From Campylobacteraceae bacterium (GTDB lineage Bacteria > Campylobacterota > Campylobacteria > Campylobacterales > Sulfurovaceae), in the NCBI GenBank assembly GCA_027081405.1, contig JALWKO010000041.1, forward strand, positions 1 to 48,335: a DNA stretch of 48,335 nucleotides, in the 5' to 3' direction. The position numbers and the translations under genes are program-made. Positions 15,641 through 24,473 of this stretch are shown piece by piece; within the stretch, counting starts at the first letter, position 1, and each line of letters begins with the position of its first letter. The notes under the pieces are model-generated. The model searched no databases, was not told the DNA's origin, and worked only from the letters and a program-made list of their open reading frames with translations.

Positions 15641-16303
15641 TCAGGATCCCGATTGCCCATCAATGTAGGCATAGCCGGTCTCTTTGGTGATGATGATGCT
15701 AAACGGCGCGATCGAGCCGTCGGAAAACTGAAAGGTGAAATTGCAATCTTGCGATACCACCGCCCCCGCATTATCGGCACTGGTAGAGGTGGGAAACGAA
15801 GAATTGTACGGGCGACCGTAGTGATCGAATCCGAGATAGTTGTTTGAACAACCCCCGCTTGCCGTCACTGAACTGATACCGTATTTTTTGCCGAGAAAAA
15901 CCGAAGGGCTCAGATCGTTTCGGTTGTGGCTGCCGGCACAGTTGGAGCCGTCCTTTGCCCAGAAACGTTTGCCGTTGGCCGGATCGATGGCGCTTTCGTT
16001 GAAATCGACCCGGGCATTGGAACTGCTCTCCATATTGTCATCCGTCCCGATGGCGTAAAACGGCCCCCCTTCACACGTTCCGAAATAGATCCTCCAAAAA
16101 CGCTGCTGCCACTTGCTGTCATCGAATTGATGTCGATCGTCAGTCAGCGCAAGGTGCTGGGTATAGCGGATCGCCGAGAGGACATTATCCGCCGCTTCTT
16201 GCCGGAGATCCCGATCGAGACGAGGGAGGGCCAGTACGGCGATGATCCCCACTACCGTGATGACCAGGACAAGTTCGAGCATCGTAAACGCGTTTCGCTT
16301 CAT
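15641..16303 (-). CDS. type IV prepilin-like protein, GspH/MshC type
   Basis: 220 residues. A class III prepilin leader (MKRNA) is followed by mature FTMLELVLVITVVGIIAVL: Phe1, Glu5 and a hydrophobic helix, the signature processed by prepilin peptidase. The globular part has paired cysteines. The start is one of two adjacent ATGs after AGGACGG; 16303 gives the better spacing. It is the fourth pilin-like gene of the cluster, nine bases after the previous stop. By neighbourhood it corresponds to MshC-like minor pilins; exact orthology is inferred. Confidence 0.85.
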   Translation of the reverse strand: MKRNAFTMLELVLVITVVGIIAVLALPRLDRDLRQEAADNVLSAIRYTQHLALTDDRHQFDDSKWQQRFWRIYFGTCEGGPFYAIGTDDNMESSSNARVDFNESAIDPANGKRFWAKDGSNCAGSHNRNDLSPSVFLGKKYGISSVTASGGCSNNYLGFDHYGRPYNSSFPTSTSADNAGAVVSQDCNFTFQFSDGSIAPFSIIITKETGYAYIDGQSGS

Positions 16304-16311
16304 CATCCGTC

Positions 16312-16785
16312 CTAAATTTTTTGGATGGTTCGCCGATGGATGGTTCTCCACGGCCCGCCGAGATCGTCCGGATCTTTGTAATCCACATAGACATCGACCA
16401 AGATACTCAGGGGAGATTCCGCCGTTTGGACCGATGAGGACAAAATCCTCACACTATTACACTGTGTAAGGTCGACATCCGGCGTCGCAATATAGGAGAT
16501 ATGAACGCGTACTCGGTATCCATTGCCGGTATTGGGAGTCCCGATCGTGGCGCCGATGTCTTGCAGACAGGCGGTCGAACGGTTGTTACCCGTAACCGCC
16601 AAGATCGCATATTGGGTGTAGCTTTTGGCATACAGTTTCGCCTGTTCGGCTTGGAACTGGGCCGTCGTCGCTTTGACCGTTTTGCCACTGAAGCTGAAAA
16701 CATAGGCGGCCAATGCGGAGATCGCCACCAGTACCGCGATCGCCACCAGTATCGAAAATCCCCCTCGCATTTTTCCGTATCGCAT
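16312..16785 (-). CDS. pilin-like protein lacking Glu5, MshP/PilX-type
   Basis: 157 residues. A short leader (MRYGKMRGG) precedes FSILVAIAVLVAISALAAYVF, a pilin-like N-terminal helix. Mature position 5 is Val, not Glu, as also happens in tip pseudopilins such as GspK. Two cysteines follow (TACLQD, TQCNS), typical for a small disulphide-held head. Its ATG shares a base with the stop of the upstream gene (TGATG) and AAGGTGG precedes it. Position between the MshO-like and MshC-like genes supports an MshP-type minor pilin. Confidence 0.8.
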   Translation of the reverse strand: MRYGKMRGGFSILVAIAVLVAISALAAYVFSFSGKTVKATTAQFQAEQAKLYAKSYTQYAILAVTGNNRSTACLQDIGATIGTPNTGNGYRVRVHISYIATPDVDLTQCNSVRILSSSVQTAESPLSILVDVYVDYKDPDDLGGPWRTIHRRTIQKI

Positions 16786-17642
16786 CAATAGACCACCTTC
16801 TCTTTGCAGGAGATGACGAAATCGTTGGACCCGTTGCCGTAGCGTTCCTTTTTGCAGAGCTTGATCCGGATCGATCCTTCCGCTTCCGCCCGATAGCGGA
16901 AATTGGAGACATTTCTAAGCAGCAGAGTTTTCATTGCACTAGTCTGTATTTGCCCATACCTTGGAGAAAACATATAGTACAAATACAAATCTCCATTTTC
17001 GACCGATAGAGCGTATGAACTCCATGCGAGCCAATAACGTTCTGTGACGGTTTTGGGACCGGAAATATCAAATGACAAATGGGAACTGTCTACTAGATTG
17101 ACAGGGTGTCCGATCGGATGCCCTTGTGAATCGTACACCCCGGCAAAATAGACATATGCACTGTTCAAGTTAGTGAAGTTGTTGCTCAGGTTTTTGATCA
17201 CCTGATCGGCGAGCAGGAGATTCGATCCCGGAGTGGCAATCGTCGTTTTGGAACATGCGTTCACGTCGGCAAAGCCGCTCCATCCGGGCCGGCGATCGGT
17301 CGATCGATTGAAATCGATAAAACTGTCGTAATCCCTCCCCACCCATTGCAAGAAAGGATAATCGACACCCGAAATACTCGTCACATCTACAGCTGTTGTG
17401 CTCATTGCACTTGGACGTGCGATGATCGTTCCGGGAATCGCATTTCGTAGCCGATTGGCGATCTGTTCGAGAGCGAGTTCGGTTTTGATGTCGGCGCGGT
17501 ACTGGGCCCGTTGGATGATGTACCCCTCATAGACTTTCGTGATAATGTCCGATCCCAGCGACGCGACGACGCCCAATACGACGATCACGAAGATCAGCTC
17601 GAGCAAGGTAAATCCACTGCGATTCACATTTTCCCTTTTCAT
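16785..17642 (-). CDS. minor pilin, MshO/PilW/GspJ-type
   Basis: 285 residues. Leader MKRENVNRSG, then FTLLELIFVIVVLGVVASLG with Glu5, a typical type IV pilin N-terminus. The C-terminal domain of about 250 residues fits the larger GspJ/PilW class of minor pilins, which join the tip complex. The ATG at 17642 lies five bases after the preceding stop; a TTG overlapping that stop is a weaker alternative. It overlaps the next gene at TGATG. Confidence 0.85.
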   Translation of the reverse strand: MKRENVNRSGFTLLELIFVIVVLGVVASLGSDIITKVYEGYIIQRAQYRADIKTELALEQIANRLRNAIPGTIIARPSAMSTTAVDVTSISGVDYPFLQWVGRDYDSFIDFNRSTDRRPGWSGFADVNACSKTTIATPGSNLLLADQVIKNLSNNFTNLNSAYVYFAGVYDSQGHPIGHPVNLVDSSHLSFDISGPKTVTERYWLAWSSYALSVENGDLYLYYMFSPRYGQIQTSAMKTLLLRNVSNFRYRAEAEGSIRIKLCKKERYGNGSNDFVISCKEKVVY

Positions 17643-17647
17643 CTTTT

Positions 17648-18346
17648 TCAATAATAAGTCCGATGGGCGTATTCATAGCTCCCCACATTGCATCCAAACG
17701 CACGCAATACGATCGTTTTTTGCAATTCCGGCGAAGAGCTGGAGCTGGTGAGGGTCACCGCGATCTCTTTGATATTGGACGTGCCCGTACCCAGTGCGCT
17801 CGTAGGGAGATTGTAATTGAACGACTGTTGAGCGTAATTGGCGCTATCGGAGACATACTGGATCGAGGTGGCCATCTGTACCGTCGTTTTCTCTAGATAA
17901 TCGACCCCGCCGCTTCCGCTGGAGTCGTACACAAGCGTCTGGGTCTGGCCGTTGAAATCGTCCAGATCGTTCGGAGAGCTTTCTCCCGCCTCAAGACCCA
18001 GGCTCGACGAAGCGTTTTTGTCACCTCCGCTGTAGAAGCGAAATACGCGCGATGCACCGGGAGGCACGCCGATGCGTCGTCCGTTGCCCTGATCGTCCAA
18101 TTCCAAATCCCCGTTGGTCACGTGCAAAACCGGCTGATCGCTTTCGTTGCTATCGTTCTCGTCCCAGGGATAGGTCAAGATCATATTGACATAGCTGGCC
18201 GCTTCGTTGATCGCTTCTTGCTGGATCCCCACTTGGGTGCTTTTGGATGTGGTCGCCAGCAACTGCGGCGCCGCCAACAGGGCGATCCCGATAATGACAA
18301 TGGCGAAGATCAGTTCGATCATCGCGATGGCTCGACGCATTTTCAT
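17648..18346 (-). CDS. minor pilin, MshD/PilV/GspI-type
   Basis: 232 residues. Leader MKMRRA, then IAMIELIFAIVIIGIALLAAP with Glu5. The rest is a polar, Ser/Gly-rich head. The ATG at 18346 overlaps the stop of the mshQ-like gene (TGATG) and is preceded by GGTGGAG, so translation is probably coupled to it. Taken with the three following pilin genes, this is an MSHA-like set of minor pilins. Confidence 0.83.
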   Translation of the reverse strand: MKMRRAIAMIELIFAIVIIGIALLAAPQLLATTSKSTQVGIQQEAINEAASYVNMILTYPWDENDSNESDQPVLHVTNGDLELDDQGNGRRIGVPPGASRVFRFYSGGDKNASSSLGLEAGESSPNDLDDFNGQTQTLVYDSSGSGGVDYLEKTTVQMATSIQYVSDSANYAQQSFNYNLPTSALGTGTSNIKEIAVTLTSSSSSPELQKTIVLRAFGCNVGSYEYAHRTYY

Positions 18347-21300
18347 CACCACTCCACCTGCCGCGATTTGCCGCGATAGACTCCGCCGCCGACGACGTTG
18401 CCGGTTTGACCCGACCCGCTCCAGCTACCGACGTTGATGAAACGGACCCGGTAGAAGGGGCTGGGTTCTTGCTCCCGATCGGGGTTGTAGATCAGCCACG
18501 GATCGGTGCCGGTGAGGTTGATGTCCACGATCAGCGGACGGGTGGCACTCACCGCCGTGACCGTCACGCCGTTGGCGACGCCGCCCGTAAAGGAAACCGA
18601 CGTAGGATCCGACGGAGATACCGAGCCGTTGGTGTCGACCGATTCGAGCGTGACATTTCCATCTGAGTGCGATCCTGCTGCTTGATGGACGGTATTGAGA
18701 TACCATCGGAACGCGTCGGTCGGTCTCCAATACAACGTATTGATGACGGTCGGATCGTCCGAATAGATCTCGATCGATACAGGCGTAGAGACGCTGCTTG
18801 CCGTGATGTTGTCATAGAACGTTTTAGCGCTGCGGACGCGTCCGTAGACGAAGGTTGCGTTGTGATCCGATCCGGCGGAATCGTTCATATCGCTCGTGAT
18901 CGTGTTGCTGACATTGACGTCGGTCACTTCGAAACGGAAGGGGCGTACGGGATTTGACATATTTCGATCGAAGTTGATCCAAATCCGCATGCTCGCGCTA
19001 CCGTTGTTGTCGGTATCGAAAATGACTCTGGAAATGCTCCGTGCCGTCTGTGAGCCGTTGATATCGACCGAAGCGCCCAAAGGCGCGTAGCCGCGGTATC
19101 CCCCGCCGTTAGGATAGTCAAACCCGTATAGAATGTTTCGGATCGTTCCTCCGGGATTGCTCCCATTGGCCTCCGTGCCGTTGACCGTATAGGCGAGTGT
19201 GAGATTGATATCACTGGCATAGCACGCAGCGTTGAAATTTTTCGTCGTGACGTTTTGTTCGTTCACCGCTGTGATATTCAAATCCAACTGCGCCGTCATA
19301 TTCGTATCGAGCTTCGGTGTGGAGCTGTTTTGCTTCGCCATATAGGTGAAGTTGATATCGGAATTGCTCTCGTGCCAATCGTGCAATGCGACATCCCGCA
19401 AAACGAAATGATCGGGATTAAACGCGATCGTCGTACTGTTCGCCTCGATCTCCCGCCCGATCCCGTTATTTGGCGTGTTGGCATCGGAATTGCTGTAATT
19501 GGTATCGTTTTGATCGATCGCGGCAAATTCGGAACCGGGCTTCTCCGTTATCGTGATGTTGAGCTCCCCGACTTCGTTGTAGTTCAACGTCAAATTGGCT
19601 TCTCCATCGGCAAAAACTCCACCCGATACAAGCGAAAGATTCATCGTATCGGGGGCACAGTTGGGTTTGGTATCGTTATACTCCAAAGAGGGAGAAGTTC
19701 CTCGTATCGTGATGGGCTCATTGTATCCTCGCGTACGGTTCCCCTCCCCATCTTTGGCGACAATGGTGAGGTTGAATTCCCTTCCCGCGATCACCGCTCC
19801 GGAGATAGACGAAGCGCTGATCTCGAAACGATCGGGACGGATCGCGAAACGATCGGTACTCAGTTCTTCACGCCATCCGATTCCGGCTTGTGACTTGGGA
19901 AGGATCATAAGACCTGCATCGGTACAGTTTCCTTCACAACTGGTAGGGGGATAGAAGAAGTATTGTCCCCCTTCGTACTTTCCGCAGAAGCGGAATACGA
20001 CGGCCGCGTTGCGCATCGCGTAGCGGGTTTTGAACCATGGTTTGATCGGTAATTGCGTCGCGTTGGCATCGAAGGTCCTCCATCCCACATCGGGCACGTA
20101 CGAATAGTTGCTGTCTGTACTGTTGATATCCGTGACCGAAGCGAGACGATAACACACCTGCGTCACTTCCGGCATCCGTTTGATCTTTGTCCGATTCTCA
20201 TCCAGCGGAGCGATACTGAGATTGAAGTCCTTCGCCGCGATTTTTGTCGAAATGTTTAGATCGTTTACATTTGGGAGATTGTTCGTATTCCTGAACGTAT
20301 CCCATGCATCCAAATTCCCGGCATTCTCGGCACCGGGATGTACCCCGTAGACCGCGCAATTCCCCCGCACGCGGATCCAGGAAATTTCGTGGTTGTTACA
20401 CCCCCCACCGGTACTTCCCGTGATCGCGTAGCGGACGAAATCAGGCGTGGAGCCTTGGTTGAGCGACGGATCTTTGGCGTCGAAGCGGTTGATGATCACC
20501 TGGTAATCGGAGGGATCCCCGGTAGTGCTCCGCTCCAACGTGATGTAGAGGTGGTCCGGATCCCGGGCATCGACAGTCATTTTGTACCGTCCAGAGAAAT
20601 AATCATCCGGCGCAGGATCGCTCAAATGTGCGGCGATCGGCGGAGAGATGGTCTCCGTCCCTGCCAGATATTCGTATCCTTCCGTTCCGTTTCCGTCTCC
20701 ACGGATGCTTACGGCATTGACGTAATTGTCGGTGATTCCACCCTCTTTCCCTTCGTTGGGTTTGGCGTAGTTTCCGAACTCATCCAGCCCCAGACCGAGC
20801 CATCCCCCTTCGAATCCGGCTTTGTCGATATCCGCCCAACTGGTATGCACCACCATCTGTGCATATCCCAAAGCCCCTCCGTACGCTCCTGGTGCCGGCG
20901 CGGCCCCTACGTCGGAATTGAAAAGGACGTTGGCGATCCCGTCGGCTCCCCAATCCCCCATCAGATTGTGCCCGTGATGTTCTTTGTAATTGTGCCCATC
21001 TTCACAGCCGCCATAATCATAATAGTCGAACTCGACAATGATCAGATTGTATCGGGTGTCGAATTTGTAATCTTTCGTAATGAGTGTCGACTCGTTATGA
21101 TTCTGATCGGTGATCCGCAGTCGATGATCACCGTTTACGTCGACGATATGCGGGGTGAAGTTTCCTCGGATTGTGCGTACGTGCCATAGATCGTCCAGTT
21201 GGCCGTTTTCGAAATCGTCCTCGAAACAGATCGGCACGTCGTTTTGCGCGAGAATGTGAATCTCGGTGGAATTCTGATCCCCCAGGCAGACCCCGTCAGG

Positions 21301-23628
21301 GGGATTGTCCAGCTGGACCGTGAAGTACTCTTCCAACTCGATGGGACGGTCGTTGTAGATATAGATGGGGATCGAAACGTTGTTCTCTCCCGCCGGGAGG
21401 ATGACGGTACCGTTGTCCACGGGGACGTAGTCCCCATCGGCCGCCTTGGCGGTCCCGTCGACCGTATGGTAATGAAGCGTGATATTGTGATCGAGTCGAC
21501 GGTTGATGACGATCACCGGATAGACCGGTTTGGTCGTGCCGTATTCGTTGATATTTTCCCGTACGTCGTAGCGAGGTTTGGCGAATTGCACGATCGCGCA
21601 GGGACGGCACGGATGAATCACCCCGCGATAGAGGACGCCGTCTTTGACATAGGTACCAAAGAGGGTGGTATCGGAAAAGATCGCTCCGCTGATCGTACTC
21701 CGCGTGAAAATACTGTGATTCTGATCGGAACCGAAATCGGGCATCGGATCGTAGGTGACGGTACTGGGCATCCCAAGCCAGCTAAATCCCATGAAAGGGA
21801 AATCCAGCACCCGATCGTCGGAGCAGTTGCTCTCGTTGTCGTCGACACCGCATTCGTCGATGAAACTTCCATCCACCAAAGATCGGGTCACAAGATTGGT
21901 ACTCACCCCTTGCAACGGCTCTCCACTTTGGTTCTGTAACACGATGGTACGGGTACAATCAAATCCGCCGTTCATGAATCCCATATCCATACACAGCATC
22001 CCGTCAATGATATCGGAACTGTAGCACAGATCGTCCGCTTCCTGGACGATGTTTCGGCACTTTTTCAACGGGCCGTAATACTCCACTCCACCGCTCGTGT
22101 AATGTACGGTCATATTGCCGTCGTACGGAGACGATCCGAACACGCCGGCCTGTACCCCCGCCGTGAGAAGATGACGACCGAAAGGCTCGAACGGACCGAC
22201 GGGGTCGTATTCGATCGTTTTGTTTTCATCATGGATCACACATCCGTTTCCGGTCCGGTCGGTTCCGTCGATCCCGCATGTACCGTCCAACGCTCCGGCA
22301 AAACGGCTATAGTCGACAAGCACCGCACTATCACTGATCGGGTCGTTGGAGAGGTTGCGGATCTTGAGTGCTTGCTGACACCCCACTCCCCCCTCGAAAT
22401 GACCCGTCGAATTGAAACACGACGAAATCGGACCACCGGCTTTGGTGTATTGCTGCGACTCGACGCAAATCACCGGATTGTCCACGTATCGGGGGCCGTT
22501 TTGGACAAAGATCCGCACCGTCGCAGGCTCCGAACAAGCGCCGTTCGAGTCGCAGGCTTGGTATAGAAATGTATCTTCCCCCTCATATCCGGCGTTGGGA
22601 ATATAGGTAAGATTCGTATCCGGACCGCTCAAAGTCCCGTGCGACGGCCCGTTCCCCAAAATAGGATAGCTCTGGATTGGATCCCCGTCCGGATCGTTCG
22701 CGGAGATGGGCACATGCACCGGAGTGTCCACGGGGGTTTGGAGATCGAGGTCGACTGCCGTAGGGGCATCGTTGACCGGATTGATCGTCACGGCGACCGT
22801 CGCGGTATCGGTCCCGCCGTTGCCGTCGCTCACGGTATAGCTGAAGCTGTCGTTTCCGTTGTAATTGCTTGCGGGAGTATAGGTGATCGTCCCGTCGGCG
22901 TTGATCGTTGCGTTTCCGTGAGCGGGATCGCTCACGCTCTCGATACTTAGGCTGTCACCGTCGGGATCGCTGTCGTTGGCCAGCACGTCGATCGTCACCG
23001 GCGTGTCTTCGTCGGTGGTGGCGGTGTCGTTTTGGGCAACCGGGGGGGTACTATCGTCGTTTTTTATCGTAATCGTACTTGTACTGTCCCCGATGGTAAA
23101 ATTTTGTGAAGAACTTGTTCCTCCGTCACTGATAGTAATTTTGAAGGTTTCATCCGGTTCGATTTGTGTATCACCGTTGACAGTCACAGAGATACGTTTG
23201 CTTTTGTCCGCATCATCACAACTATCAGACCATCCCGGCACCGAAAAAGTCACATCCCCGCTAGCACCGACATAGTCGTTATTACTTGTTTTTGCCGTTC
23301 CATCCGCAGTTTCCCAATGGATTTTGATATCGGATGTATCGGGACAATCAGACGCGGTGATCGTCAAGCTAACGGTAGATGTCCCTGAATCCCCTTCATT
23401 TACGGTGATATTAGTTGGAGAAATATTGATGGTAGGGTTGTTGGATACCCCCCCTCCAAAACTCAACGCCGAGAAAAAAAACCAGCCGATCAGTATATTA
23501 ACGTTCATTATCTGAGGAATATGGCGATATTCATAATCCTCTGTTTTCTTCGTATTTCTTGCCATGATAACCTTCCATGGCAAAAGCGAACACGCAACTA
23601 TAATTCTCTTGATATCCGTCACTTTCAT
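18346..23628 (-). CDS. mshQ: giant MshQ-like surface protein: Calx-beta, cadherin-like, lectin and DUF6701-like domains
   Basis: About 1760 residues. Order: an unusually long N-terminus with a hydrophobic signal segment (ILIGWFFFSALSFGGG, about 44-59); a Calx-beta domain (about 60-195); two cadherin/VCBS-like repeats (about 195-380, e.g. VLANDSDPDGDSLSIESV); a Cys-rich stretch; a second Calx-beta (about 705-825); an L-type-lectin-like domain (about 835-1020; GADGIANVLF, GGWLGLGLDEFGNYA); then a long C-terminal part like the domain shared by MSHA biogenesis proteins MshQ. It probably binds surface glycans or Ca2+ and works at the pilus tip. The start at 23628 has AAAGGAG six bases upstream, in the riboswitch; an ATG at 23565 with GGAAGG is an in-frame alternative. 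First gene of the minor pilin operon. Confidence 0.85.
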   Translation of the reverse strand: MKVTDIKRIIVACSLLPWKVIMARNTKKTEDYEYRHIPQIMNVNILIGWFFFSALSFGGGVSNNPTINISPTNITVNEGDSGTSTVSLTITASDCPDTSDIKIHWETADGTAKTSNNDYVGASGDVTFSVPGWSDSCDDADKSKRISVTVNGDTQIEPDETFKITISDGGTSSSQNFTIGDSTSTITIKNDDSTPPVAQNDTATTDEDTPVTIDVLANDSDPDGDSLSIESVSDPAHGNATINADGTITYTPASNYNGNDSFSYTVSDGNGGTDTATVAVTINPVNDAPTAVDLDLQTPVDTPVHVPISANDPDGDPIQSYPILGNGPSHGTLSGPDTNLTYIPNAGYEGEDTFLYQACDSNGACSEPATVRIFVQNGPRYVDNPVICVESQQYTKAGGPISSCFNSTGHFEGGVGCQQALKIRNLSNDPISDSAVLVDYSRFAGALDGTCGIDGTDRTGNGCVIHDENKTIEYDPVGPFEPFGRHLLTAGVQAGVFGSSPYDGNMTVHYTSGGVEYYGPLKKCRNIVQEADDLCYSSDIIDGMLCMDMGFMNGGFDCTRTIVLQNQSGEPLQGVSTNLVTRSLVDGSFIDECGVDDNESNCSDDRVLDFPFMGFSWLGMPSTVTYDPMPDFGSDQNHSIFTRSTISGAIFSDTTLFGTYVKDGVLYRGVIHPCRPCAIVQFAKPRYDVRENINEYGTTKPVYPVIVINRRLDHNITLHYHTVDGTAKAADGDYVPVDNGTVILPAGENNVSIPIYIYNDRPIELEEYFTVQLDNPPDGVCLGDQNSTEIHILAQNDVPICFEDDFENGQLDDLWHVRTIRGNFTPHIVDVNGDHRLRITDQNHNESTLITKDYKFDTRYNLIIVEFDYYDYGGCEDGHNYKEHHGHNLMGDWGADGIANVLFNSDVGAAPAPGAYGGALGYAQMVVHTSWADIDKAGFEGGWLGLGLDEFGNYAKPNEGKEGGITDNYVNAVSIRGDGNGTEGYEYLAGTETISPPIAAHLSDPAPDDYFSGRYKMTVDARDPDHLYITLERSTTGDPSDYQVIINRFDAKDPSLNQGSTPDFVRYAITGSTGGGCNNHEISWIRVRGNCAVYGVHPGAENAGNLDAWDTFRNTNNLPNVNDLNISTKIAAKDFNLSIAPLDENRTKIKRMPEVTQVCYRLASVTDINSTDSNYSYVPDVGWRTFDANATQLPIKPWFKTRYAMRNAAVVFRFCGKYEGGQYFFYPPTSCEGNCTDAGLMILPKSQAGIGWREELSTDRFAIRPDRFEISASSISGAVIAGREFNLTIVAKDGEGNRTRGYNEPITIRGTSPSLEYNDTKPNCAPDTMNLSLVSGGVFADGEANLTLNYNEVGELNITITEKPGSEFAAIDQNDTNYSNSDANTPNNGIGREIEANSTTIAFNPDHFVLRDVALHDWHESNSDINFTYMAKQNSSTPKLDTNMTAQLDLNITAVNEQNVTTKNFNAACYASDINLTLAYTVNGTEANGSNPGGTIRNILYGFDYPNGGGYRGYAPLGASVDINGSQTARSISRVIFDTDNNGSASMRIWINFDRNMSNPVRPFRFEVTDVNVSNTITSDMNDSAGSDHNATFVYGRVRSAKTFYDNITASSVSTPVSIEIYSDDPTVINTLYWRPTDAFRWYLNTVHQAAGSHSDGNVTLESVDTNGSVSPSDPTSVSFTGGVANGVTVTAVSATRPLIVDINLTGTDPWLIYNPDREQEPSPFYRVRFINVGSWSGSGQTGNVVGGGVYRGKSRQVEW

Positions 23629-23634
23629 CATCAT

Positions 23635-23716
23635 CTCCTTTGGCAACCCGGCTGTCTACGTGAGACCCGTGGCTTTCCGTCCCCGCCTCGCGACGGGTTT
23701 GGCTTTTTCCTAAAAG
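23635..23716 (-). promoter_or_regulatory. c-di-GMP-I (GEMM-I) riboswitch controlling the mshQ operon
   Basis: Read on the minus strand, the transcript has GCCAAACC (plus 23696-23703), a P2 stem capped by a GCGA tetraloop, GGGACGGAAAGCC (23671-23683), a P3 arm with GTCT/AGAC, and GGGTTGCC (23642-23649). This is the conserved skeleton of the GEMM-I aptamer. The P2 pair equivalent to G21-C46 of the Vibrio Vc2 RNA is swapped to C-G, a compensatory change. The base equivalent to G20, which separates c-di-GMP from cGAMP specificity, appears to be G. The Shine-Dalgarno AAAGGAG (23635-23641) abuts the aptamer and can pair with CUUUU (23712-23716) as a closing helix, suggesting a translational OFF switch. 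Confidence 0.8.
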
Positions 23717-23744
23717 CACCGTGATCCGGCACCTATGCTTTCCC

Positions 23745-23750
23745 ATTATA
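23745..23750 (-). promoter_or_regulatory. -10 box of the mshQ operon promoter
   Basis: TATAAT on the minus strand, about 30 bases before the 5' edge of the predicted aptamer. That places the transcript start just upstream of the riboswitch. No good -35 hexamer is visible, which is common in Campylobacterota. Confidence 0.6.
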
Positions 23751-23924: not shown

Positions 23925-24473
23925 ATGAACAAACATATCGCCGGACGCCACTTCGAACTCAGCGAACCGATCAAAAACTATATCGAGAGCGCGATCGACA
24001 GCCTGGAAAAATACAATCTCGAGATCATCTCCGTCCACTGTATCGTATCGGGAGACACCAAAAACGGCAAAAAAGGCTACAGCGTCGAGTTCGTCGTCAA
24101 CCTCAAAGACAAAAACACCGTTGTCATCACCCAGCGGGACAAAGACGTCTACGCGGCGATCGACCTGGCCCTCGAGCGGATGAAAAAAAGCCTCCGACGC
24201 TTCTCCGACAAGATCAAGGACAAAAGCGGCAACCTCAGCCTCCGGGAACTCGAAAGCGAGATCGAAGAAGCCGAAGAGCAGCTCGATTTCGTCAACGATA
24301 TCGACGAAGACATCGTTCCGATGGATCTGGAGCTCCACAAGCCTCTCGATTTCGAAGAGGCCCGCGACCTCCTCGCCTCCGACCCCAAACGGCAATTCAT
24401 CGTCTTCAACGACAACGAAGGGCGCATGCGGGTCATGTACAAACGCTCCGACGGGAAATACGGATTGTATTGA
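23925..24473 (+). CDS. hpf: long-form ribosome hibernation promoting factor
   Basis: 182 residues. An N-terminal S30AE domain (about 1-100) binds the decoding region of the 30S subunit. A charged linker leads to a C-terminal domain (about 120-182; FIVFNDNEGRMRVMYKRSDGKYGLY) that dimerises in long HPF and joins two ribosomes into inactive 100S particles in stationary phase or stress. The start ATG has AAAGGA seven bases upstream; a longer open frame to 23721 overlaps the opposing mshQ promoter and is not coding. Monocistronic, with its own promoter. Confidence 0.95.
   Translation: MNKHIAGRHFELSEPIKNYIESAIDSLEKYNLEIISVHCIVSGDTKNGKKGYSVEFVVNLKDKNTVVITQRDKDVYAAIDLALERMKKSLRRFSDKIKDKSGNLSLRELESEIEEAEEQLDFVNDIDEDIVPMDLELHKPLDFEEARDLLASDPKRQFIVFNDNEGRMRVMYKRSDGKYGLY

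Follow-up and report, generated by a model that had tools for sequence, protein, structure and literature searches.

A predicted class-I c-di-GMP riboswitch abuts the Shine-Dalgarno sequence of an MshQ-like adhesin gene in a Campylobacteraceae genome

A c-di-GMP-I (GEMM-I) aptamer lies on the minus strand directly in front of a large adhesin gene in the window, by which we mean the whole 48,335-nucleotide stretch of DNA that was analysed; it makes up all of one contig (C41) in a genome of 1.93 Mb that carries four such aptamers. Based on covariance models and conservation across the lineage, this element is a putative class-I c-di-GMP riboswitch of canonical type, and it is distinguished by having no spacer or separate regulatory segment between the aptamer and the Shine-Dalgarno sequence. 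With somewhat better than even confidence, we read it as a canonical class-I switch that turns off translation of the MshQ-like adhesin, and probably of the four minor-pilin genes behind it, when c-di-GMP is bound; ligand binding, the sign of control and a steric mechanism are presumed in this reading. The element is thus a new case of a known switch, of interest chiefly for its compact layout. The features referred to below are the following:

23925..24473, plus strand: divergent ribosome-hibernation gene hpf/raiA (the same neighbour in relatives G005 and G007)
23745..23750, minus strand: candidate -10 element TATAAT (sequence, consensus only)
23714..23734, minus strand: 5' leader hairpin of 8 bp, a rival of the proposed outer helix (ViennaRNA fold)
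23712..23716, minus strand: CUUUU, proposed 5' arm of the outer helix (pairing with the Shine-Dalgarno possible, chance level)
23638..23712, minus strand: c-di-GMP-I (GEMM-I) aptamer (Infernal, RF03167 and RF01051)
23701..23703, minus strand: G20, C21 and C22, the alpha-base Hoogsteen contact and start of P2 (86-aptamer alignment, PMC3764141 numbering)
23682..23697, minus strand: P2 hairpin with GCGA (GNRA) tetraloop at 23691-23688 (Infernal alignment)
23674..23678, minus strand: G45 and G46 (P2 partners of C22 and C21), intercalating A47, A48 and A49 (86-aptamer alignment)
23645..23674, minus strand: P3 hairpin (Infernal alignment)
23642..23643, minus strand: C92 (beta-base pair) and C93, which pairs with G14 at 23709 (Infernal and 86-aptamer alignments)
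23635..23641, minus strand: Shine-Dalgarno AAAGGAG, directly 3' of C93 (sequence, spacing survey)
18346..23628, minus strand: large MshQ-like adhesin, about 1760 aa, with Big_9, cadherin-like and Calx-beta domains
17648..18352, minus strand: minor pilin, N_methyl, weak PilV similarity
16785..17651, minus strand: minor pilin, IV_pilin_GFxxxE
16312..16788, minus strand: GspK-like minor pilin (weak)
15641..16351, minus strand: minor pilin, GspH/FimT-like (weak)

Infernal searches with Rfam models matched the aptamer to RF03167 (c-di-GMP-I-GGC) over its full length (23638-23712, minus strand; 74.8 bits, E 4.9e-16), the top bit score of the clan, and to RF01051 (c-di-GMP-I) at 70.5 bits; both exceed the gathering thresholds of 59 and 35 bits, respectively. 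An earlier note on this DNA had proposed a c-di-GMP-I riboswitch here and named a covariance-model search as the check, and both scores are far above chance. The conserved GEMM-I blocks it described are all present in the right order on the minus strand at 23703-23642 (GCCAAACC, the GCGA tetraloop, GGGACGGAAAGCC and GGGTTGCC), with the GNRA-type loop GCGA capping P2 in the Infernal alignment.

In Vc2 numbering, the base at position 47 stacks between those of the ligand, and cGAMP-type (GEMM-Ib) riboswitches have A at position 20. In this numbering, taken from PMC3764141 (C22-G45, G20, A47 and C92), the window pocket reads G20, C21-G46, C22-G45, A47, C92 and G14-C93. The RF03167 consensus GGGACGCGAA has G at position 47 whereas the window sequence GGGACGGAAA has A47, a mismatch at that column of the Rfam alignment; judging from the consensus, the name GGC presumably denotes G20/G47/C92. 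We searched 80 genomes (the window's own and relatives), obtained matches in 29 and aligned the window aptamer with those of the genomes searched, giving 86 rows in which G20, A47, A48 and A49 are invariant (86/86). The GGC-variant reading was rejected, as A47 in the window and in every aligned lineage aptamer stands against G in the RF03167 consensus. As judged from its bases, the pocket is that of a canonical c-di-GMP-I riboswitch, and the RF03167 label is misleading, carried by overall similarity. G20 rules out a cGAMP-type reading in the window and in all 86 lineage aptamers, in agreement with the earlier observation of a G where cGAMP variants have A; because it is conserved throughout the alignment, c-di-GMP and not cGAMP is the expected ligand, as G20/A47/C92 would together imply.

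The pairs next to the pocket are compensatory: pair 21-46 is CG in 85 rows and UA in one, and pair 22-45 is CG in 74 and UA in 12, so the paired positions covary while the pocket is nearly fixed. A C-G swap in P2 had been reported and is present (C21-G46, compared to G21-C46 in Vc2), but it is not a tuned variant: C21-G46 is the lineage norm (85/86) and is found across phyla in 116 or more stretches from other genomes, mostly Desulfobacterota, Gammaproteobacteria and Campylobacterota, and we rejected it as a specificity or tuning variant. P1 has G14-C93 as its sole clear pair in the window, and roughly 60 of the 86 aligned aptamers have a standard pair at 14-93. Position 92 is C in 81 of the 86 rows and U in five, all of which keep G20 and A47 (L171, G007:C165:940-1014; G025:C66; G025:C20; G034:C1:625907; and G044:C200:9925). 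Such a G20/U92 pocket could reflect a cGAMP preference or a tolerated G-U pair.

The TATAAT that had been noted just upstream of the aptamer is found at 23750-23745 (minus strand), about 33 nt 5' of it, with a predicted transcription start near 23738, although a promoter scan at this site found no -35 match and no complete sigma-70 site. The Shine-Dalgarno AAAGGAG follows C93, the partner of G14 at the top of P1, with no base in between, and the likely adhesin start is predicted to be the third ATG (23628), 6 nt after AGGAG and 14 nt after C93. Of 147 aptamers surveyed mechanically for spacing, 120 had a start that could be called, and for these the median distance from aptamer to start was 92 nt. 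Only three fell at 16 nt or less, and the window alone among them had a Shine-Dalgarno judged convincing, which makes it the tightest convincing aptamer/Shine-Dalgarno spacing of the 120. Since this layout was seen in one genome only among those compared, it has no comparative support.

The gene 3' of the aptamer encodes an adhesin of about 1760 aa and is followed by four pilin-like genes. No match to DUF6701 (PF20419) was obtained in the window adhesin even at E 5, and its ortholog in relative G007 (L171) matches DUF6701 at 2.7e-12; the label MshQ-like is fair because of this ortholog. The proposal of a class-I aptamer ahead of an adhesin/minor-pilin operon is borne out, and its MshQ label is reasonable, with the pilin neighbours and the G007 ortholog in its favour and the window protein itself without a DUF6701 match. 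In the N-terminus of the adhesin (window 23400-23631), a segment of unusual length, conserved in part, precedes a hydrophobic stretch; it is also seen in G007 and is possibly an extended signal peptide.

An aptamer also precedes the orthologous or homologous adhesin in three relatives: G007, G042 and G005, the last a member of the same genus and identical over the tested stretch to JALWNT010000039.1 (Campylobacteraceae MAG). The divergent hpf gene lies beside this locus in G007 and G005. No aptamer over threshold was found at the adhesin-homolog loci of 12 relatives, and thus the link between aptamer and adhesin is not universal. In G005, G007 and G042 the start codon is much farther from the aptamer than in the window, and the leaders hold two mutually exclusive helices, P1 (for example, CUAUG/CAUAG) and an anti-P1 formed by UGUACUC-UAUGAUG with CAUCAUA-CAG-GUACA, which is part of the minimum-energy ligand-free fold of G007 and was drawn by eye in G005 and G042. 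The downstream anti-P1 arm is missing from the window leader. One could picture an aptamer that survives after loss of this arm with no output left, as the longer leaders with P1/anti-P1 arms kept by the three relatives would allow; however, the window aptamer scores best of its genome's four and has intact pocket bases and P2 and P3 pairs, making decay very improbable. Another tentative possibility, to which we give appreciably less than even weight, is a platform-free switch in which the bound aptamer, ending one base before the Shine-Dalgarno, would itself repress; it would descend from a long-leader switch on this adhesin that lost its anti-P1 arm, and its regulatory sign may differ from that of the relatives. 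These adhesin loci, with a long leader or none, offer a natural series on the gain or loss of an expression platform.

The earlier note had placed the Shine-Dalgarno in the closing helix of the aptamer. The pairing is possible, CUUUU (23716-23712) forming a run of five pairs with AAAGG, but it does not rise above chance: 12% of shuffled flanks, and 9 of 85 aptamer flanks, contain runs of at least five pairs, and 54% of shuffles match its duplex energy of -1.9. If transcription begins where predicted, part of CUUUU is taken up by a stronger 8-bp 5' hairpin (23734-23714; ViennaRNA). Given a chance-level run, a typical energy and this competition, the helix is not supported, and we rejected it as a designed element. 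In leaders ending at the start codon, with transcription starting anywhere from 23744 to 23731, predicted openness of the ligand-free Shine-Dalgarno is 0.92-0.97; enforcing the aptamer lowers it to 0.80-0.86, and with the likely transcription start the mean falls only from about 0.95 to about 0.75-0.80. An extended P1, which ligand binding would close so that its outer part covers the Shine-Dalgarno, gains from a start at 23731, where the 5' hairpin is lost and openness drops from about 0.9 to about 0.31 once the aptamer is enforced. Yet the helix would also have to bridge two bulged bases before G14-C93 and is kept in no relative, and we consider this account unlikely.

The translational OFF reading invokes no separate expression platform. 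In the ligand-free state, the stretch from P3 to the start codon would be single-stranded and ribosomes would load on AAAGGAG. Once c-di-GMP is bound, C92 would pair with the ligand and C93 with G14, P2 and P3 would pack rigidly, and the last base of the bound fold would touch the Shine-Dalgarno, so that crowding may exclude the 30S subunit; transient pairing of CUUUU with the Shine-Dalgarno might add to this exclusion to some degree. No intrinsic terminator was found in the window leader, and together with the exposed ligand-free Shine-Dalgarno and a compact bound fold adjoining it, this makes occlusion the simplest account. Since pairing of the Shine-Dalgarno is predicted to change little with the most likely transcription start, the model relies on crowding. 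The earlier suggestion that adhesin translation falls at high c-di-GMP thus keeps what is probably the likelier sign, with crowding fitting better than the CUUUU/AAAGG helix as the means. The opposite sign, with bound ligand releasing the start region from a competing structure so that adhesin rises with c-di-GMP, would suit biofilm logic, has a counterpart in Vc1, which positively regulates an attachment protein, and could draw on the P1/anti-P1 alternative of the relatives, which could give either output. We rate such an ON switch as rather improbable in the window: the Shine-Dalgarno, 0.92-0.97 unpaired, is masked in none of the predicted ligand-free folds, and the leader has no terminator that ligand binding could relieve.

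The four aptamers of this genome precede the MshQ-like adhesin with its minor pilins, PilJ (L009), an SdrD_B protein (L011) and an HU-like gene (L010). The same genome has at least 15 GGDEF domains (15 matches over the Pfam cut-off), and no PilZ was detected in it or in the other searched members of its family, some of which carry up to 13 c-di-GMP-I aptamers. Across relatives, genes 3' of aptamers encode PilJ, outer-membrane efflux (OEP), PAS, histidine kinase, lipoproteins and large surface proteins. In a Campylobacterales family without detected PilZ, c-di-GMP riboswitches may recurrently control adhesins, PilJ, outer-membrane efflux and surface proteins. The HU-linked aptamer (L010 8600-9000, G000:C90) recurs in the same genus (L159, L163, L172 and probably L167); its leader, about 155 nt or longer, is closely alike in L159, L163 and L172 and divergent in the window's own genome. 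The HU assignment was confirmed on the G001 homolog, and the HU-like gene lies at some distance from the aptamer. Past the SdrD-linked aptamer (L011 7882-8030, G000:C57), a 7-bp GCAUACU/AGUAUGC hairpin is possible around the Shine-Dalgarno and start codon, and this switch may be an ON switch.

We found no paper linking a c-di-GMP riboswitch with Campylobacterota. The window shares with Vc2 of Vibrio cholerae (RF01051) the fold, G20, A47, C92, C22-G45 and a GNRA tetraloop, and differs from it in C21-G46, a very short P1 and a Shine-Dalgarno at the base after C93; Cd1 likewise lacks P1 (PMC9262584). The Geobacter cGAMP GEMM-Ib riboswitch has the same fold with A20 in place of G20, and position 21 of its structure seems to be C as well, going by the contact numbering quoted in PMC7288161. 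A c-di-GMP switch on a pilus adhesin had been called striking, but adhesins and pili under the control of c-di-GMP riboswitches have been described before (PMC6200980, PMC4744006). In Clostridioides difficile, as in the window, c-di-GMP riboswitches precede adhesin or type IV pilus genes, with class-I switches OFF and class-II switches on pilA1 and adhesins ON (PMC6200980); the pilA1 switch acts by transcription read-through, whereas the window layout points to translation. Vc1, also of class I, activates gbpA, which encodes a surface-attachment protein, from a leader of about 225 nt (PMC4744006), and hence the sign cannot be read from the class. Vc1-gbpA and the window both have a class-I aptamer before an attachment protein, with the likely start in the window only 14 nt after C93.
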